A program made the translations under genes and the position numbers. A model generated the notes under the pieces. The model was not told the origin of the DNA and did not search any database. It saw only the letters and a list, made by a program, of their open reading frames with translations. This document shows, piece after piece, positions 3,476-21,327 of a DNA stretch of 39,253 nt; position 1 is the stretch's first letter, and every line of letters starts with the position of its first letter. Source of the stretch: a virus; IMG/VR virus record IMGVR_UViG_3300011116_000469, positions 1 through 39,253 of that record. One strand, 5' to 3'.

Positions 3476-3506
3476 AGTACTGCGCAACTTACTGGAGAAC
3501 CGACCG

Positions 3507-3827: not shown

Positions 3828-3849
3828 CCCCTAACTGGAGAACCTGACC

Positions 3850-4029: not shown

Positions 4030-4051
4030 CCACCCTCAACTGGAGAACCCA

Positions 4052-4222: not shown

Positions 4223-4244
4223 CCACCACCAACTGGAGAACCCT

Positions 4245-4639: not shown

Positions 4640-4665
4640 ATCACCCCTTACTGGAGAACCTGACC

Positions 4666-4857: not shown

Positions 4858-4887
4858 CTGCGTCACCCCTTACTGGAGAACCTGACC

Positions 4888-5163: not shown

Positions 5164-5199
5164 CGTGTAGCCCTTCACCCCTTACTGGAGAACCGACCA

Positions 5200-5409: not shown

Positions 5410-5435
5410 CGCACCATCAACTGGAGAACCTGACC

Positions 5436-11814: not shown

Positions 11815-12633
11815 TCATTCTCCAGTAGGTGCGAGTAGGTCCGTCTGTGCCCAGTTCGGGATACGGATCTCAAGGATGTCATCGCTCCATCCCTTGCACG
11901 GGTCGGCAAGGAATTCGGCGTACAACTTGGCGAGGTCGGGGAGTCGCGAGGCAGCGAGGTCAAGCCCATCGGGGTGCAGTCCTGCGCACATGCATGCGTG
12001 GGGAGCGTTCTTCTCCACCACAATCAGAACCACGTTGTTGACTTCCTTCCCGGCAGCGCGGAGCATCTCACGGTAGAACGCAAACTGCGTCCAGTACCCA
12101 AAATTCCACGCAGCCCTAGCGAATTCCTGCGGGGAAGCAAGCCCGCTATGGGTCTTGATGTCGATGATCGTGCCAGTGGATTCGATCCACCCGTCGATGC
12201 GGGCCTTGGCATCTATTCCATAGATGGATCCCTTGACGGTCAGTTCAACGTCCTCGCCGCAGGCGTTGATGAGCAGGCGGGAAGCGGGATGCGTCATCAC
12301 GCCACCGCGCATCTCTTCCACCAAGCAGTACTCGTCGCGGGTCAGGACGGTGCGTCCCTCCGCCAGTTCCTGAAACTTCTCCCACTCTTCCTTGCCCGCC
12401 TTGGTGCGGCGGTCGATGTCCGGGGCGGACAGGAAGTCACGGTCGTAAACCGTAGGTGTCAGCAGCAGGGAGTGCAGCGCACGGCCCACGCGAAATGCGG
12501 AGGTGTCGGTGCGGTTCTCCTGTTCTGCCAAGAGATGGAGCGGGGTGGACTTGTCAAGCGTCTTGAGCGCGGACGCGCTCATCAACTTCCAGCCGTGGTA
12601 TTCGGCCTCCGGTACGTTTCTAATCAGTTCCAT
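11815..12633 (-). CDS. PD-(D/E)XK exonuclease, RecB/exoVIII-like (DUF3799-type)
   Basis: A 272-residue nuclease with VPEAEYHGWKLMSASALKTL at the N-terminus, a catalytic-type His in GRALHSLLL (H54), then D147 (AKARIDG), D158 and K160 (TIIDIKT) and Q183/Y187 (YWTQFAFY), the PD-(D/E)XK set with the RecB-like QxxxY motif. Such enzymes resect duplex ends to give single strands for the annealing protein, which is the next gene (ATGA overlap region). The start follows TAGGAGAACCAA. First gene of the leftward early block, downstream of the promoter at 12679-12706. Confidence 0.9.
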   Translation of the reverse strand: MELIRNVPEAEYHGWKLMSASALKTLDKSTPLHLLAEQENRTDTSAFRVGRALHSLLLTPTVYDRDFLSAPDIDRRTKAGKEEWEKFQELAEGRTVLTRDEYCLVEEMRGGVMTHPASRLLINACGEDVELTVKGSIYGIDAKARIDGWIESTGTIIDIKTHSGLASPQEFARAAWNFGYWTQFAFYREMLRAAGKEVNNVVLIVVEKNAPHACMCAGLHPDGLDLAASRLPDLAKLYAEFLADPCKGWSDDILEIRIPNWAQTDLLAPTGE

Positions 12634-12678: not shown

Positions 12679-12706
12679 ACGATACCGATGTATCGATACA
12701 TTGCAA
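12679..12706 (-). promoter_or_regulatory. Putative leftward early promoter with palindromic operator
   Basis: On the minus strand TTGCAA (12706-12701) and TATCGT (12684-12679) are 16 bases apart, each 4 of 6 to consensus. The perfect 14-bp palindrome ATGTATCGATACAT (12688-12701) fills the spacer, and GTATCG recurs next to it. A 6-bp hairpin (12653-12668) follows in the 5' leader of the exonuclease gene. A repressor bound to the palindrome would block this promoter. Confidence 0.5.
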
Positions 12707-12752: not shown

Positions 12753-12927
12753 GAATAAACCCCCGCAGGATCTTGCGATCTACTGCGGGGGCTTCCGGGG
12801 GCGGAGTGGATGGACTAGGGAATTGTCGGGGCCGGGGCGAGGGGCTGAATTCTCGCCCCGGCTCTCGACTTTGCGTCTTGCATTTCGCGGGACCAACCGC
12901 TACCATGCAGGTCTGGAGAACCTACGC
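12753..12927 (-). ncRNA. Predicted small RNA complementary to the early-gene leader
   Basis: Predicted from promoter (12962-12934), start near 12927 and a terminator-like hairpin (12791-12760), about 175 nt. Near the 5' end it carries AGGUUCUCCAG (12923-12913), the exact reverse complement of CUGGAGAACCU in the leaders of the plus-strand early genes. A 10-bp perfect hairpin follows (CCGGGGCGAG 12861-12852 with CTCGCCCCGG 12841-12832), then the terminator. A free 5' seed plus two stem-loops is a classic antisense small-RNA layout. Six early genes match all 11 bases, four match 10, two have one mismatch. No convincing ORF lies in it. Alternatively the site is a remnant of a lost plus-strand early gene. 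Confidence 0.5.
12760..12791 (-). terminator. Leftward terminator-like hairpin
   Basis: CTGCGGGGG and CCCCCGCAG arms (12783-12791 and 12760-12768) enclose a further GATC-TTGC-GATC stem with a 2-base bulge. Read leftwards the hairpin is followed by TTTATT. It would end the small RNA and also any read-through from the late block before the leftward early promoter. Confidence 0.7.
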
Positions 12928-12933
12928 GCTCAC

Positions 12934-12962
12934 AGTATAGCGTGTTGTGGCCTGCGGGTCAA
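12934..12962 (-). promoter_or_regulatory. Strong leftward sigma70-like promoter
   Basis: TTGACC (12962-12957), a 17-base spacer and TATACT (12939-12934), each 5 of 6 to consensus: the best -35/-10 pair in the window. No plausible coding start follows within 250 bases; the first structures downstream are the two hairpins of the predicted small RNA. Confidence 0.7.
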
Positions 12963-13332
12963 TACTGTCGCAAGATTTCCCCGGCGCGGTAGGGGGAAAG
13001 TGGTTCAAGACTGCGGCACTGACTCTAGCCGCAGCCAACGTCCGCGACTACGGACTGTTGCGCTCCTTTGTAAGGGCAGCGCGTGGCTACCACCCACGGA
13101 AATGGTGAAACTTACAACATGGGATACCTCGCACGGCTCCGGTCGGGCTGAATCCTATGCCCTCTTCGGAGGGTCATGGTGTTCCTTCACTCACCAGTCG
13201 AACTGGTACAGCCCAGACCGCCTAGCGCGGCTGTGCAGGGGTGCGGGGGGCGCAGCCCCCTGCGTTACCTCATACAAAAACAAAAACACGCAGCGTCCCG
13301 TAGCGAGTAGCGCGGCGCAGCCGCGATACGAA
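12963..13332. other. Non-coding interval downstream of the giant gene
   Basis: About 370 bases with no gene I can support. It contains short G+C hairpins (GCGGC-GCA-GCCGC near 13311; GGGGGC-GCA-GCCCCC near 13245) and, on the minus strand, a T-rich run TGTTTTTGTTTTTG near 13275-13290 that may help end late transcription. A plus-strand frame from an ATG at 13099 (MVKLTTWDTSHGSGRAES...) to 13350 stays open but lacks a ribosome-binding site and runs into the late gene. I looked for a tRNA and did not find a convincing cloverleaf. Confidence 0.4.
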
Positions 13333-16300
13333 CTAGGGAAGAGGAATTGAAACGCGACCAGCGTTCTTCGCACGTTGCAGCACACGCCTGCGGATTTCTT
13401 CAGGACTGAAACGCTGCTCAATCGTCTGAAGCCGCTTCTGCAACTTTTCCTGCGGAGTCTTCTCCGCTTCGGGAATCTGCTTCGCAACGAACGAATACAA
13501 CTGGTACGCAGGAACGCCACGCAACTGGGCAACAGCAAGGATCGCAGGCGCAAGGTAAGCCCAACTGCCATCCTCGCCGCCGATCTTCGCAGCCTCACGA
13601 GTCGCCTGTTCAAGAGGTCGCGTCACAAGAGCCTGCATTGGAGCGCGGCGGTACATCGTCGCCGTGATCATGCCCTGCAACGCGAGGCCGATATAGCCAC
13701 CTACCTGACCAGACAGTTCTGCGGCAACGGTGACAGGAAGTTCCTTCGCAGCCTTGGCGAAAGCCTTGTCTTCCTCATCAGTCGGTTCATCAGCACCACC
13801 AAGAGCAGACGAGATCGTCTTTGCAATGTAAAGCAGCGTACTTACGCTTGCCGCGTTGATGATCGCGTTCGTCGTGAGGTTGCCGCCAATGGCAAGCGCA
13901 GTGCCACCACGGCGTTCGCCGCTGATCCACGCACGGCGGATCTGGTTGCGGGCCTTCAGCGTGTCGCTTGAGAACGGGAACAGCAGTCGCCATCCCGGCG
14001 ACTTGTTGGAAGTGCGCGTCTCCGCAGCAAACGCAGTCTCATCAAACTCGTCACTGGAGTTCTGCGACCTGCGGAAGTCCTGCTCTGCACGTTCGACCGC
14101 CACAGCAAATGCGGCAGCACCAGAGTATCCCTGATCCTTTGCCTCTGCCAGCCGCGCCTCCACGGCAGTCAGCATGATGTTCTCATCGATGCCACGCAGG
14201 ACATCGACAAGGCTAGACAGCACGATGTTTGCGTTGTCAGTCGCATCTCCAAGCGAATTCAGGGTATCGGTGAAGTTCGCGGCACGGGTGGTGGTCGTGG
14301 CTGCGGCAATCGACTTGTACACGGCCTTCGCAGCAGTCATCACCTTGATGCGATCCTGCTCCGACATGCTTCCGGACATGATCGAACGCATGTTCATCTG
14401 ATGGCGGTGCGTGAAGTACCCGCTCTGCGAATGGATCTGCTCGACACGCGCCTGCCACATCGCAGGGGAACGGAGCATCGCCGTTGCCCGCGCCGTTCCT
14501 TCGGCGAGGTACACCGGGCCGACTTCGCTGGCAAGGCGGATCACGCCACCAGTCGCTACCTTTGCCCACGTTCGCGGAGACAGGGACAGCACTGCACCAG
14601 TGACGTTGTTCGTCAACTTGTCGATGATCGTCGCGTTGGTACGCGCCGTTGCACCCACGCCGTTGGAGAAGATCGACAGCAGTGCGTTGGCAGTGCCCGG
14701 ACCCATCTGCCTGTCCATCAGCGACACCACCTGCTGATCGGAAAGCACTGTAGCCGCATCGCGATATGGCTGCGCCATGTGGATCATGTCCAGCGCAACC
14801 TGCACATGGCGATCCCAAGTCTGGAACGCATCGCTGTATAGGAGCGGGCGATTTCCACCAGTACGGGCATTGGCGAAGCCCACGGAGGTCAGTGCGCCGC
14901 GAACCAGTGCGCCAGCCGCATTCAGCACGGCTGCGGATTCGCCCTCAAACCCAGCCATGTCGCGAATGCGCGGCCAGTAGTTCTGCACGATGGGTGGCTG
15001 ATCGCCTTCGATCTTCCAGATCGCGTCCATTGTCCGGTCGCGGATTTGGGTTTCAAGGATGGCCTTCATGCCGTCAACCAAGCCCTGCTGACCCGGCGTA
15101 AGCCCTGCCTTGATAGCCATGATCTCCTCGCGGGTCGGGTAGATCGTGGTAGTCGTGCGCGAACCCGGGAAACGGATGCCCTGCGTGAGCGGTTCGCCTG
15201 CCTTCGGGAAGATGGCAAGCGTCTCGTCATCCATCGCGGCAATCGAGAGCATCGTGCCGACCGGAATCGTCACGTTTCCACCGCCAAGCGTCACCGTGAC
15301 CGGGTTGACAAGCGTCTGGCCCATCATGCCGTTCTTCAGCGCGTAGTCATCCAGTCCGCTGTAGCCAGCCGCCTGAAGCAGCGGTTCCAACTGCCGGATG
15401 ATGGCCGCATGCTCCAGTGCAGACGCACCCTTGCCCTGCTGTGCCGCCGTCAGCAGTTTGTTGATAATCCCATCTGACTTTCCTTCTAGTTCCAACTGAA
15501 GGGTGTAGATGTCGGAGTTCGCAACGCGGATTCGACGCGCCAACGAGGTGCGCGGCGGCTGATCGGTGCGGTCACGCATCGGCAGGTTCGGCCTGCCCTG
15601 CATGTTGGCGACTAGCGCAGCCGTATCGGCCTGATACTTTGCAACGCGGGCTTCCTTCTCCGCCTTGAACGCCGCTGCATCGTTGGTGTAGAGCACCAGT
15701 GCCGCGTCAACCTTGGCAGCGGCATCAGCCACCTGACTGTAGACATTCACGGCGTTGATGATCGCCGCACCCATCGACCTGCCAGCCGCGTTCTTCATCA
15801 CGCCGACACTGGCTTGGATTCGCCGCCTGTTGGCCTGACGGAGAGCAGCGTCTGCATCCCGCAGCAGCGTCTCGATCTGCACACGGGTGTCGTACTTCAT
15901 CCCGCGCTTGTTCATCTGCTTCTTGAGACGGGCAATCGTCTTGAGCGTGGACGAAACTTCCTCGTTGATCGCCAACTTGGTTGCTTCCACCGCAATTCGA
16001 TTGGCCTGTCCAATCGTCTTGGCGTTGGCAATGCGGATGGCAAGCGGTCCACGCAGCCGCACTGGCAACGTACGCGCTGCATCGGTCGCGATCTGGCTGA
16101 TAGCCGTGCGCAAAGCCTCAAGGTTCGTTACCTTGGTGGTCATCAGGTCGCGAAGACCAGTCAACTGCCGCTGCAAGGTGTCTTCGCGCTGCGCCATCTT
16201 GCGCAACAGCACCTGCCGACCACGCATCATGCCCTGCACCTGACCAGAACGCAGGCCCAGTTGGTACGCGAAGTCAACAGCCTTCTGCGCAGACTTCTCG

Positions 16301-19300
16301 TCCTGTGCAATCTGCTTTCGCGCTGCCCGAAGGTCTTCGGTCGCCTTCGCAAGACGGGCTTCAACGAGCGGCAGACGCTCCTTGAGCGGCTTGATCACCC
16401 GCAACTGCTCACGCCGCTCCTGCTGCATGCCCGCGACCTGACCAGCCACCAGCCCCTCGTTGCGTCCAATGGCGTAGGACCAGTTCGCCACGCGGTCCAG
16501 TTTCTTCTCTGCCTCGCGGAGCAGGTCTTCCGTGTCAGCGTTGGACTTTGCCTCGCGCAGTTGCTGGCGCAGCGAAGCAACGGTCGCACGGGCTGATTCC
16601 AGATCCGTGGACATCTTCGCAGCCGCCTCTTGAGCAGCCTGCTTGGCATCGCGGTTGACCTGCTTCTGGATCTCCAGCCGTGCGGAAACACGCGCCGCCT
16701 GACCGATCTTCTGTTCGGCAATCAACTGGGCAGCAGACAACTTGCGCTCCAACACACGCACCTCGCGCAGAGCGTTTACACGCTGTGCGGCAGTGGTGTT
16801 CTGTACATCGCGCATCTGACGCTTGAGGTCTTCAATCTGCTGACGCAGCGCAGTTACTTCGGCATCTTCGTCAGCGCGGGCGTAGGAGATGTCTCCACGC
16901 TGTGTGGTTGTGCGCTCATCAACGACAGTGAGGTTTGGATAAAGACGCTTCAGCCCATTGTTGTATTCGTCGAATGTCTCAACTGCATGCAGGCTTGTGT
17001 CTGCTGCAAATTGATTGGCAATTTGCGAAAGTCTTTCAATCACTGATTCTTTGGATGATCCAAGAGGAATTCCAATCATGGACACATCAATTGACTCTGG
17101 GAAAAATGTGCCACCAGTGTGATATCCATTTGCTCTGATTTGTTCAATTGACCATTCGCCGTTAGTTTCGACGATATCAATTGACACAGGCAGATCAGTT
17201 ACATTTTTCAAACTGCTTGTTCTTGGATAACTATTTCGTTCTTCCCAAGGAACAGTATTTGGAAGAACAGACAGACTTTTTTTCACACCGGGCAGTGCAA
17301 ACCAAACACGGAATTTCTTTTCTCCTAGAGTTTCAACTGTTTCCAATCCAGTAATTAAAGGGAATCCCTTTATAGTGATTGGCTTTTTCGGCGGTGCTTG
17401 CACTTCTCCGGGAACAGCGGATCTACGAAGTGGCTTTCCGATACCAGATGCCATGTCGGTCTGCGAAATCTCGGTAGTAAGATTCATCAGATCATCAAGC
17501 ATTGACTGCGAAACAGTCTGATCAATTCCAAGAAACTTGCGAAGCGTATTCATCAAGCGGCTGAACATCGATCCAGATCCGCGCTTCTTGCTTGGCAGTT
17601 TGCGAAGCAAGTCTTGGAATCTCGTGTCGTTGATCGCTTCAGCAACGAATTCATGCAGATTGCCAAAGGCATACATGCCTCCATTTTCAAGCATGGCATC
17701 GCCGCCGTTGTTGCGATTTACAAGACCTCCACCTTCATACGTTCTCTGTTCTTCAAAACCCGGAATAATGGTCTTGACAGCGGTTCCGGGCGCGGAAATG
17801 CTGACCATTCCAATTCCATTTTCCTGATAACTGACACGCATTCGCGAGAAATACGTCTGCGAAACAGGTGTTCCGCTATTCAACTTGTCAACAAGATCTT
17901 GCAGTTTGTTGAGCGCATTGATTGAAGATTCGCTTGTTTCATCTGCAACGTGAACCGATGTAATTATTACTTTGTTGTTTGCAATAATTACTGCACTCTT
18001 GCTTGTGGAACCATCTGAACCACGTTCGTCGATGATTCGCGCTTCTAGTTTGACCTTCTTTGGATCGATGACAACACCATCACTTGATGATGCACCCTTT
18101 GTCATCAGGTTGTACTGATGCGGATTCGATCTTGCAGATTCCAAGAAGCAGTCAACCAACTCCTTGAAGGCGGGATCGACTTCAGGATCAGTGGAATATC
18201 GTTCCAGATTTTCGATGTACTGTGCGCCATCTACACCGCGCAGTTCCCATTGTTCTGCAATCTGTTCTCCAGCCTCGCCATATCTCCTCTGACCAGATTG
18301 CGCAATTTTCCTATCTACAAATGAGTTGACATAATCATCGATGCGCCGTGCTGTCGCTGCATGCATCAACTCATGCGCAAATACCAATCCGCCATCATTT
18401 ACTTTTGAACCCGACAATGATTCAGGCAACTGTGATTGATGCAATTCAATAGATCCAAGCCCATACATTCTGTTGGCGGCATAATTTGCGCGGACATCTC
18501 GATATGTGATGACAGCAATGCTTTCATCCAGATCCAACTTCGCAATGTCCGGATCCTTGATCTCTGGTGTTTTCCCCGCCCCAGCGAGAGCATCATTTCT
18601 TTCTCTCACTGAACGCCCAACGACATCCTGAAGCGCAAGCAGAATGTCAGACCATCTGCTTCCTTGGGCGACAAACCCAGAGACAATGTCTTTGGTTGAG
18701 TCTTGACGAATGCGGGCCATCGACTCCGTAGCACCGGACACGGCGCGATCAGTCTGGGCCTGCGGCGCAGCCTGCGGTTCCAGTTCCCCACGCGCATACG
18801 ACTCCGCCGCGTCCAACTCGCCCTTGAAGTCAAGGTTCATGTCGTTCGCCCAGAGCAGCGTCCGGGCGAGTGGTGACAGAGTGGCTACAGGCTTTGTACC
18901 TTCCACGGTTTCGACGGCAGCAGCGCGGGAGGCAGCGTCCAGCACGGCCATCGCGGCCATGACATCGCGGCCCAGAAGCCCACGGCGGGCCGCAAACTGC
19001 TGGAGAGGCGCGAGGATCGATCCGGACCCTGTGGCCCGGGCGGCGGCTGCAAACGCATTGGCAGCACCTTCCTGCTCGATTCTGGCCGCACCCATGCGGG
19101 CGGCTTCGGGCGAGATGCTGGGCTGCTCACCCTCCAACTGGGCGACCGCCGATTCCGCCTGCGCCAGCGCAGCCCTATCCATCCGCGCCTTGTCTTCGGA
19201 CTCCTTGGTCCCTTGGGCGGCATAGGCAACGCCCGCCTGATACACGGGCATCAGTCCAGCCTTGTCCATAAACACCTGCGCCAACTCTGGTTGGAACATC

Positions 19301-21327
19301 TGGATGTCGTGGAACACCTCTTCCAAGGCGTTCGCAAGGACATTCGCAGGAGCGGCATCGGCGTTCATGTACACCACGCCCTTGGACCGCATGCTGTGGA
19401 ACGCAGGGCTGAACGTCCCCTTCGATGGGCGAAACCACACAACCTTGCGGCCAAGTGCTTCGATCTGGGCCTGCGCCCGTGCCCCGTTTTTGGGCATCGC
19501 CGTGGGCTTGAGTTCGACCCCAGCCCGCGTGGACACATCGGTCAGCACCTGTTCCGGAGCAGCCTGCTCGATGGTCGCAGGCATCTCCCCGATCTTCTCC
19601 GCGACTGCCGAATACTGTGCATCGGCCATCATCGCATCGCTCGTCGCCAACTGGAGTTGCTCGTCGAGGGTGGAGATCTGACCACGGATCTGCTCCGCCT
19701 GATCCTTGGCCGCAGCCTTCTCCTCATCCGTCCCGTTCTCCGCCAGATCCAGCGCACCCGTCAGGCCGATGTCCAACTGCTGACGCTGCGTCAGCAGGTT
19801 GTCTGCATTCGTGCGGGCATCAATCCGGCGGTCACCCAGTTCGCGCAGGAACGTGCCGCGCTGCTCCTGATCCATGCCGTTGACGCTGTCCAGCGCGGTT
19901 GATAGACGAGCGTTCTGCTCCTCCGTCAAGTCCTGCGACCAGTTGGTCTTACGCTGCATGGCATCGGTGTGGATCTGGCGCAGCACACGCTCACGATCCG
20001 TCTCCGGGCGCATCGAATCACGGACGTTGACCACGCCCTGACGCACGGCAAAGGCTCCAGCCGGAGCCACGCCTCCAACGCCACCTGCTCCAAGTCCGAT
20101 CATCGCGCTGTACAGGCCGTTGGCAATGTCTTCAGACAGAGGTGCAGAAGTGAACGGAGCCATCAACGCTGCCGTCACCAGTTCTTCGCCGCCTTCTTCG
20201 ATGGCGGAAGTAGCACCCATCGCCAAAGCCTTGCCGAAGAACCCGTTACGGAACTCAAGCGTGTTTTCCGATAGCCGTGCAAATGTCTGAAGTCCCTTGC
20301 TGCCCACCTTGGACACCATCACCCGGTCCACAATCGGCATACCACGGTCGATGAGCGGCTTCAGCGCAGCCTGCCCAATAGCCGTAGCCCCGGTGGTCTT
20401 GGCAATCTTGCCGATGATCTTGCCACCCAGAGCCGCACCGCCAAGTTCGACACCCGTGTTGATTACCGCCGAAGTCGCGGCATAGTCGCGCATGTCGGAC
20501 AGGTTGAACTCCGGAATGTCTCTTCCCTCCATCGCAGCCGCTGCCCGGTCACGGTTTGTCTGGTCGATGTACTCCAGTGCGCCCGCAGTCCAACTGGACC
20601 CCGGCAGATACAACTGGGAAGCCATTGCCGCCCCTGCCACGGGCGTACCAAGGGCAACCGCCGGAGCCATTGCGGCAAACTGGGTCAGGCTCTGACCAGT
20701 CGCACGGGCAATGTCGCCACCAATACCCTCGCGTTGACCCTTGGCAGTGCCCTGTGCAGCCCCCTGCGCAGCGATTAGTTCCTCGCGGACGCGAGTCGGA
20801 TCCATCTGGGTATCGAACGCAGCGCGTTCAACAGCCATAGACGTTTCCTGTGCTGCTGCACCAGTGATGGCCTGCTTGAGTTCAGGCGATTGAATGCGGA
20901 TCTCACGCATCGCCGGACCCATGCCAGCAGAAGCCAGTTCCGCGAGCGTCCACGCCCCGTTGTAGATCGACTGGATCAGTTGCGCCCGCATCCCGGGAGT
21001 GGCAATCGCCTGTGCAGCCTGCGACACCTGACCACGCGCACCACGTTCAATCTCGCGAGGAATCCAGCCCACAGATTCAGGCAGGACTACCTCATTCTCG
21101 TACATCTTTGCAGCGGCAGCGGTTAGATCCTGTTCACCGGGTGCTGATCCGGGAGCAGCCCCGGGCGCAGACTTGAGATCCAACTGCGCAGCAAAGTTGG
21201 CAAGCGCATCCAGAGCAGATTCAGGTGCAGCGTCTGGCACAGGAGCGGAAGCAGCAGCAGCAGCATCCTGCTCCTCGGGCTTTTTGAGTTGAACGAGGAA
21301 GTCCGACAGTCTGTCGAGTGAAGACAT
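13333..21327 (-). CDS. Giant internal virion / large polyvalent protein with metallopeptidase motif (2664 aa)
   Basis: A single frame of 2664 codons, by far the largest gene. N-terminal: acidic, Ala-rich start; Ala/Gly-rich hydrophobic stretches (AAMAPAVALGTPVAGAAMA; YSAMIGLGAGGVGGVAPAGA) that could cross or breach membranes. Residue ~669: EEVFH, a degenerate zinc motif. H985-E-L-M-H989 then AATARR: canonical HExxH, with NLHEFVAEA at ~1224-1231 likely giving the third ligand. Residues ~1485-1900: long charged coiled coil (AEVTALRQQIEDLKRQ). The C-terminal half has segments typical of large polyvalent proteins (PPIVQNYWPRIRDMAGFEG) and further Ala/Gly-rich helices. Its place after the internal virion genes suggests an ejected injection protein; the peptidase could cut cell-wall or host proteins. 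No RNA polymerase motif was seen. The start follows AGAGAAAG, three bases after the previous stop. Confidence 0.9.
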   Translation of the reverse strand: MSSLDRLSDFLVQLKKPEEQDAAAAASAPVPDAAPESALDALANFAAQLDLKSAPGAAPGSAPGEQDLTAAAAKMYENEVVLPESVGWIPREIERGARGQVSQAAQAIATPGMRAQLIQSIYNGAWTLAELASAGMGPAMREIRIQSPELKQAITGAAAQETSMAVERAAFDTQMDPTRVREELIAAQGAAQGTAKGQREGIGGDIARATGQSLTQFAAMAPAVALGTPVAGAAMASQLYLPGSSWTAGALEYIDQTNRDRAAAAMEGRDIPEFNLSDMRDYAATSAVINTGVELGGAALGGKIIGKIAKTTGATAIGQAALKPLIDRGMPIVDRVMVSKVGSKGLQTFARLSENTLEFRNGFFGKALAMGATSAIEEGGEELVTAALMAPFTSAPLSEDIANGLYSAMIGLGAGGVGGVAPAGAFAVRQGVVNVRDSMRPETDRERVLRQIHTDAMQRKTNWSQDLTEEQNARLSTALDSVNGMDQEQRGTFLRELGDRRIDARTNADNLLTQRQQLDIGLTGALDLAENGTDEEKAAAKDQAEQIRGQISTLDEQLQLATSDAMMADAQYSAVAEKIGEMPATIEQAAPEQVLTDVSTRAGVELKPTAMPKNGARAQAQIEALGRKVVWFRPSKGTFSPAFHSMRSKGVVYMNADAAPANVLANALEEVFHDIQMFQPELAQVFMDKAGLMPVYQAGVAYAAQGTKESEDKARMDRAALAQAESAVAQLEGEQPSISPEAARMGAARIEQEGAANAFAAAARATGSGSILAPLQQFAARRGLLGRDVMAAMAVLDAASRAAAVETVEGTKPVATLSPLARTLLWANDMNLDFKGELDAAESYARGELEPQAAPQAQTDRAVSGATESMARIRQDSTKDIVSGFVAQGSRWSDILLALQDVVGRSVRERNDALAGAGKTPEIKDPDIAKLDLDESIAVITYRDVRANYAANRMYGLGSIELHQSQLPESLSGSKVNDGGLVFAHELMHAATARRIDDYVNSFVDRKIAQSGQRRYGEAGEQIAEQWELRGVDGAQYIENLERYSTDPEVDPAFKELVDCFLESARSNPHQYNLMTKGASSSDGVVIDPKKVKLEARIIDERGSDGSTSKSAVIIANNKVIITSVHVADETSESSINALNKLQDLVDKLNSGTPVSQTYFSRMRVSYQENGIGMVSISAPGTAVKTIIPGFEEQRTYEGGGLVNRNNGGDAMLENGGMYAFGNLHEFVAEAINDTRFQDLLRKLPSKKRGSGSMFSRLMNTLRKFLGIDQTVSQSMLDDLMNLTTEISQTDMASGIGKPLRRSAVPGEVQAPPKKPITIKGFPLITGLETVETLGEKKFRVWFALPGVKKSLSVLPNTVPWEERNSYPRTSSLKNVTDLPVSIDIVETNGEWSIEQIRANGYHTGGTFFPESIDVSMIGIPLGSSKESVIERLSQIANQFAADTSLHAVETFDEYNNGLKRLYPNLTVVDERTTTQRGDISYARADEDAEVTALRQQIEDLKRQMRDVQNTTAAQRVNALREVRVLERKLSAAQLIAEQKIGQAARVSARLEIQKQVNRDAKQAAQEAAAKMSTDLESARATVASLRQQLREAKSNADTEDLLREAEKKLDRVANWSYAIGRNEGLVAGQVAGMQQERREQLRVIKPLKERLPLVEARLAKATEDLRAARKQIAQDEKSAQKAVDFAYQLGLRSGQVQGMMRGRQVLLRKMAQREDTLQRQLTGLRDLMTTKVTNLEALRTAISQIATDAARTLPVRLRGPLAIRIANAKTIGQANRIAVEATKLAINEEVSSTLKTIARLKKQMNKRGMKYDTRVQIETLLRDADAALRQANRRRIQASVGVMKNAAGRSMGAAIINAVNVYSQVADAAAKVDAALVLYTNDAAAFKAEKEARVAKYQADTAALVANMQGRPNLPMRDRTDQPPRTSLARRIRVANSDIYTLQLELEGKSDGIINKLLTAAQQGKGASALEHAAIIRQLEPLLQAAGYSGLDDYALKNGMMGQTLVNPVTVTLGGGNVTIPVGTMLSIAAMDDETLAIFPKAGEPLTQGIRFPGSRTTTTIYPTREEIMAIKAGLTPGQQGLVDGMKAILETQIRDRTMDAIWKIEGDQPPIVQNYWPRIRDMAGFEGESAAVLNAAGALVRGALTSVGFANARTGGNRPLLYSDAFQTWDRHVQVALDMIHMAQPYRDAATVLSDQQVVSLMDRQMGPGTANALLSIFSNGVGATARTNATIIDKLTNNVTGAVLSLSPRTWAKVATGGVIRLASEVGPVYLAEGTARATAMLRSPAMWQARVEQIHSQSGYFTHRHQMNMRSIMSGSMSEQDRIKVMTAAKAVYKSIAAATTTTRAANFTDTLNSLGDATDNANIVLSSLVDVLRGIDENIMLTAVEARLAEAKDQGYSGAAAFAVAVERAEQDFRRSQNSSDEFDETAFAAETRTSNKSPGWRLLFPFSSDTLKARNQIRRAWISGERRGGTALAIGGNLTTNAIINAASVSTLLYIAKTISSALGGADEPTDEEDKAFAKAAKELPVTVAAELSGQVGGYIGLALQGMITATMYRRAPMQALVTRPLEQATREAAKIGGEDGSWAYLAPAILAVAQLRGVPAYQLYSFVAKQIPEAEKTPQEKLQKRLQTIEQRFSPEEIRRRVLQRAKNAGRVSIPLP

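Follow-up and report, generated by a model that had tools for sequence, protein, structure and literature searches.

The locus lies in a 39,253-base IMG/VR virus record that was analyzed over its full length and is called the window here; related contigs carry G and L numbers. To the left of the locus are the genes for Erf and exonuclease VIII, and to the right is the structural block, with matches to tail, head, and terminase proteins. The exonuclease VIII gene (positions 11815 to 12633) has the same direction as the leftward RNA described below, begins ∼120 bp beyond its terminator, and has a possible promoter of its own. A palindrome, TGTATCGATACA, at 12680 to 12700 overlaps promoter-like sequence just upstream of this gene and is possibly a repressor operator. 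On the other side, the coding sequence of a 2664-residue protein (13333 to 21327), for which Pfam gave no match, ends ∼400 bp from the predicted leftward start; the protein found at this place in relatives has 2365 to 3925 residues.

The leftward promoter consists of a −35 box TTGACC (12957 to 12962, minus strand) and a −10 box TATACT (12934 to 12939, minus strand). With its spacer of 17 nucleotides, TTGACC-N17-TATACT is the top σ70 −35/−10 pair on both strands of the whole window (15.8 bits, the next being 13.6), in agreement with the sequence-only reading of this DNA, which had singled it out. TTGAC(C/A) is kept with a 16- to 17-nt spacing in the exo and L170 clades, and TAnnnT is kept at the equivalent place in relatives. 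From the predicted start at ∼12927 on the minus strand, the promoter would give a small RNA of about 172 nt (12754 to 12927, minus strand), both ends of which are predicted from the promoter, folds, and terminator found in the window and in relatives. Rather than the two hairpins described earlier, minimum-energy folds of single sequences give P1 enclosing P2 and P3 in a three-way junction, followed by P4, a C-rich linker, and the terminator. P2 (12909 to 12921; GGUU-CUCCA-GACC) carries a hypervariable loop, which differs even between the close relatives G005 and G006; in the window, its apical loop plus stem form the segment complementary to the leader of the rightward genes. Folds and promoter scan place P3 at 12880 to 12908, in DNA that also contains the rightward promoter, and P4 occupies 12832 to 12861. 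The intrinsic terminator (12754 to 12792), which had been correctly proposed for the end of the RNA, is a hairpin at 12760 to 12792 with a GCAA loop, followed by UUUAUU. All four elements are on the minus strand. In G001, G004, and G023-G024, the P1-P2-P3 junction comes out partly rearranged in the best single fold, and its presence there is deduced from the other lineages.

Relatives were collected via the exonuclease and via DNA patterns, and the leftward promoter is found again in uncultured phages together with the hairpins and the terminator. This comparison supports the notion that the leftward RNA, though predicted, is real. One alignment of the leftward RNA, in which the G006x row came from wrong coordinates, was set aside. 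The leftward promoter of the exo clade reads TTGACCCGCAGG-N8/9-GCTAnnCT (CTAnnCT in G008), and that of the L170-L179 clade reads TTGACA with TAnAAT. Between G001 and the window, changes in P4 and in the terminator stem are compensated. A long P4 hairpin is usual across relatives, and the shortest leftward RNAs (87 to 99 nt in G014-G016) keep only the junction and the terminator. An extra domain around UUCUCUGACGAG lies ahead of the terminator in G004 and G008, bringing the RNA to about 240 to 250 nt there. The leftward RNA was not found in G002/G003, although the leaders are conserved in these contigs.

Upstream of the leftward promoter, the region 12960 to 13230 is conserved even better than the leftward RNA. 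It belongs to a predicted structured noncoding RNA of roughly 300 nt read rightward (provisionally 12913 to 13231, plus strand; analyzed core, 12936 to 13231). The element occurs in about 40 contigs. In an alignment of 13 diverse lineages, 55 base pairs are supported, 97.3% of their cells are paired, and compensatory double changes are seen at 22 of the 55. Its covariation score was 0.403, compared with 0.141 in shuffles and 0.03 to 0.08 in slid controls, and none of 500 shuffles reached the observed value. On the same alignment, the consensus energy is −66.2 kcal/mol for the plus strand versus −47.6 kcal/mol for the minus strand, and in several lineages hairpins are capped by UNCG/GNRA tetraloops (UUCG, UACG, GAAA, and GAGA) on the plus strand only. 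A minus-strand model fits for the most part as well (48 pairs, 96.5% paired); energy, tetraloops, and promoter jointly favor the plus strand. A protein-coding reading of 12947 to 13230 was dropped, since frames, judged by eye, are not kept between relatives. Searches of Rfam, including GOLLD, ROOL, and riboswitches, gave no match at the gathering threshold or at E values up to 2 to 3. Likewise, DNA searches for the element in named phages and plasmids, plus one GTDB pattern scan, gave no match, and no near relative of the window was present in the phage and plasmid collections searched.

The putative promoter of this rightward RNA, TTGCAT-N17-TACCAT (12878 to 12906, plus strand), faces the leftward one from inside P3 and would start transcription at ∼12913; it is the best plus-strand match just upstream of the element (P = 0.027 in the window). 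In the majority of the 18 contigs scanned, the best plus-strand match occupies the corresponding position, with spacings of 16 to 18 nt and individual P values of 0.000 to 0.18. These rightward promoters are mostly modest (7 to 13 bits), many of them individually nonsignificant, and almost every lineage has a higher score for its leftward than for its rightward promoter. No consistent facing promoter emerged from the scan in L213, L214, L220, and L183. The sequence-only reading had thus recognized the leftward half of the locus, the small RNA itself, and missed the facing promoter and the roughly 300-nt structured RNA.

As a consequence of the two promoter positions, the predicted RNAs overlap at their 5′ ends by about 15 nt in the window (12913 to 12927, both strands), a segment that includes CTGGAGAACCT (12913 to 12923), the 11 nt with which the predicted rightward RNA begins. 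The overlap measures 12 to 53 bp in most relatives: 12 to 17 nt in L217, G014, G016, and both the exo and L170 clades, with 14 of the 18 scanned contigs in this range, 49 in G018/G019, 46 in G017, whose plus-strand promoter is the weakest (P = 0.18), and 43 to 53 nt in eight distant loci (L209-L212, L216, L218, L219, and L184), in most of which it contains one shared hairpin. For G015, the automatic call took another leftward promoter and gave 58; its close relative L217 has 16 with the aligned promoter. No part of the locus varies more than the overlap, and G005 and G006 are nearly identical here except for the P2 loop. Between the close relatives L212 and L220, the shared 36-base overlap hairpin is inverted within identical flanks; once one copy is reverse-complemented, the two agree at 33 of 36 positions. 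Two RNAs transcribed from the two strands of one DNA segment stay complementary whatever its sequence, and drift of the overlap would be harmless to such a pair.

The RNA pair is kept amid differing neighbors, next to a giant gene in the window and a terminase operon in G023-G025. A second phage group, L170-L179, has the same pair between a terminase operon and an Erf/Gam operon; a methyltransferase-like protein of 474 residues is further encoded by L179. The exonuclease gene lies ∼1.6 kb from the leftward RNA in G005-G007, with other genes between, and in G025 Erf and Gam lie further on past the leftward terminator.

Scanning the window for CTGGAGAACCT with at most one mismatch gave 13 sites, all on the plus strand; shuffles lead one to expect 0.6 and never gave more than 3. 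Twelve of these sites are leader copies, each standing immediately before an ATG in the rightward block, none of them among the structural genes. Six are exact (1821 to 1831, 2370 to 2380, 3835 to 3845, 4651 to 4661, 4873 to 4883, and 5421 to 5431), four retain 10 of 11 bases (3492 to 3502, 4040 to 4050, 4233 to 4243, and 5185 to 5195), and two have one internal change (914 to 924 and 1298 to 1308), exactly as had been counted before; their consensus is ACTGGAGAACC(T). The thirteenth site, at 12913 to 12923 in the overlap, is the only copy without a start codon behind it. The next-best promoters of the window (845, 2304, and 4591, plus strand) each lie about 60 to 70 bp upstream of a leader copy, and an inverted repeat, TCGGAACGTCCGA, is found between promoter and leader at two of them. 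Among relatives, the leader is ACTGGAGAACCT in the window, G012, and G013, ACCGGAGACCTGACC in G005, G007, and G011, ACGGAGACCCTGACC in G009, ACGGAGAAC(C/A) in G008, and GGAGACTCTGCC in G002 and G003.

Each leftward RNA was compared with the leader of its lineage, using leaders borrowed from close relatives for G001 and G006 (the G006 contig has none of its own) and from G009 for G010. The longest complementary run is 11 nt in the window and 10 nt in G001, both in the P2 loop. In G009/G010 it reaches 13 nt and lies in the P4 loop (GUCAGGGUCUCCG), a different hairpin and a different leader than in the window, and in G005-G007/G011 it is a short and weak run of 8 to 9 nt, also in the apical loop of P4. 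G008 has both a leftward RNA and conserved leaders with a longest run of 5 to 7 nt (5 with its leader copies). Against dinucleotide shuffles, whose probabilities are indicative since the leader consensus was chosen by us and related lineages are few, own-leader complementarity gave P values of 0.0005 for the window, 0.0025 for G001, 0.00025 for G009, 0.02 for G005, 0.06 for G011, and 0.23 for G008; by the same test, no leader match was found in G014, G016, and G018. In a matrix of all RNAs against all leaders, those of the window/G001, G005/G007/G011, and G009/G010 fit the leaders of their own lineage best. These data suggest that some relation between leftward RNA and leaders exists in part of the clade.

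Other observations speak against a conserved regulon switch. The segment homologous to the match in the window is 7 to 8 of 10 bases like CTGGAGAACC in G005, G011, and G004, so that the match in the window needed few changes; G005 and G011 use another leader despite this segment, and the G004 contig has no recognizable leader copies. G005 and G007 have the same leader, and yet the P2 loop of G006/G007 is not that of G005. The sequence-only reading had proposed comparing changes in the leader with changes at this site. Given the missing match in G008, the different loops of G005 and G006, and the CTGGAGAACC-like segment under another leader, the two have not changed together in several relatives, and for this site the comparison tends to speak against the earlier proposal. 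A search of viral contigs for the anti-leader word over 14 bases was swamped by chance matches. The P2 loop of G004 has a 14-nt complement at another place in the same contig; it apparently lies inside coding sequence, away from gene starts, and was judged to be chance. The hypervariable P2 loops of G005/G006 had no convincing target at gene starts in their own genomes, and no repeated leader was found in the L170 clade DNA examined for an anti-leader match.

Taken together, we favor the view, at a probability of roughly 55%, that the leftward RNA and its promoter form one half of a conserved locus for two RNAs, which would act as a cis-encoded antisense pair. Two facing σ70-type promoters would produce a short, terminated leftward RNA and a rightward noncoding RNA of roughly 300 nt; the exposed 5′ loop of the leftward RNA would bind the 5′ end of its rightward counterpart, mutual interference between the facing promoters would add to this, and in this way the leftward RNA would keep the rightward one in check. 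The structures of both RNAs, their conservation, the facing motifs, and the geometry and hypervariability of the overlap can be read from the DNA itself; from them we infer the transcription of both RNAs, their pairing, and the direction of control, and the rightward RNA would be a noncoding effector of no known family. What favors this view is the harmless drift of the overlap, the combination of a strong leftward with a weaker rightward promoter, and the retention of the pair among different neighbors. At the motif level, promoters on opposite strands give overlapping predicted transcripts, and one partner is predicted to be short and structured, with a strong promoter and its own terminator. 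That the leftward promoter outscores the rightward one is as expected of an antisense regulator, and since the segment that matches the leaders is also the predicted start of the rightward RNA, the leftward RNA has a more general partner than the leaders. On the other hand, an overlap of 15 nt is short for a classical antisense pair, and the own-leader matches in the window and in G009 are left unexplained.

These same matches are the strength of the proposal made earlier, in which a trans-acting RNA blocks with its loop the ribosome-binding leaders of many rightward genes together. The complementarity exceeds dinucleotide shuffles in the window, G001, G009, and G005, is best within lineages, covers the ribosome-binding region, and falls each time in an apical loop of different hairpins (P2 or P4), as selection for pairing would give. 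We nevertheless hold this proposal to be doubtful, though possible: in G008 the run with the leader copies is only 5 nt, the distant relatives G014, G016, and G018 have no match, the match in G005/G011 is short and weak, P2 loops diverge under like leaders, the homologue of the matching segment resembles CTGGAGAACC under another leader, and leaders are conserved in G002/G003, where the leftward RNA was not found. The silencing of early genes is supported in part, by the lineage-specific matches in the window, G009, and G005. A variant in which the leftward RNA silences the leader-sharing genes while the rightward RNA is a decoy soaking it up builds on the predicted first bases of the rightward RNA being leader sequence in the window. 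We consider such a three-part circuit in this clade improbable; if true, the balance of two overlapping promoters would set the state of a whole gene block.

Two further explanations were considered. The leftward RNA could be the attenuated leader of a recombination operon, made of the operon promoter, an attenuator, and a put-like or protein-binding antitermination structure. Past the terminator there is often a gene of like orientation (exonuclease VIII in the window; Erf and Gam in G025), as in the λ pL or pR′ layouts, and terminated leaders of such kind can accumulate as small RNAs. This explanation is nonetheless unlikely: the exonuclease and other downstream genes have promoter-like sequences of their own, the exonuclease of G005-G007 is distant and behind other genes, and the facing promoter, the conserved rightward RNA, and the hypervariable overlap are left without a role. 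Finally, CTGGAGAACCT at 12913, as the sole leader copy lacking a start codon, might be left over from a rightward early gene that has since disappeared, the opposite promoter being there by chance. The leader flank does not continue after this site, relatives have no early gene there, and the leftward promoter and RNA are kept in relatives whose homologous segment is no leader, which largely refutes this idea and makes it very improbable indeed.

Under the cis-encoded antisense pair, the main partner of the leftward RNA is probably the neighboring rightward RNA, and pairing with early leaders would be either coincidental or an added trait of certain phages, specific to their clade. The 13-nt match in G009/G010 makes mere coincidence less likely. 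Silencing of the putative early genes may occur in some phages without being the shared feature of the family.

The general layout recalls ColE1 RNA I/RNA II and CopA/CopT, in which a short, strongly promoted stem-loop antisense RNA lies opposite a longer structured RNA. In such plasmid copy-control pairs, loops are hypervariable and still complementary, automatically so since both DNA strands are read. Their antisense RNA overlaps its target completely, whereas the phage pair overlaps by only about 12 to 53 nt at the 5′ ends. GOLLD and ROOL, which are larger than the rightward RNA, gave no Rfam match to it. Both are large structured noncoding RNAs of environmental and phage genomes whose function is unsettled (PMC12286853). 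An Rfam-negative structured RNA pair in about 40 environmental phage contigs would constitute a new noncoding RNA family, and the facing, overlapping promoters with a hypervariable, even invertible, shared 5′ region would be a new setting for phage antisense control. SdsR/RyeA of Escherichia coli, chromosomal toxin/antitoxin RNAs, have a similar layout (PMC6610125); we liken them by layout alone, and the phage pair overlaps only at its 5′ ends. Among phage RNAs that pair with phage mRNA, P22 sar, which acts at the translation start, λ OOP, and aQ have one target each as described (PMC12197685). The leaders are similar to the start-associated sequences of cluster K mycobacteriophages, short repeats with a Shine-Dalgarno core directly upstream of many nonstructural gene starts; in four of these phages a single orphan copy faces the other way, and the authors left room for either an RNA or a protein as partner (PMC3203893). 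The leaders of the window likewise contain a Shine-Dalgarno sequence and are repeated directly before nonstructural gene starts, and their promoter-leader layout with TCGGAACGTCCGA recalls the extended start-associated sequences of that cluster. They differ in consensus (GGGATAGGAGCCC in cluster K versus ACTGGAGAACC(T) in the window) and in host, and no antisense RNA was described in cluster K. The locus thus gives a concrete test of whether one phage RNA can control a gene set via a common start-associated leader, a question that dates from the description of the cluster K leaders.
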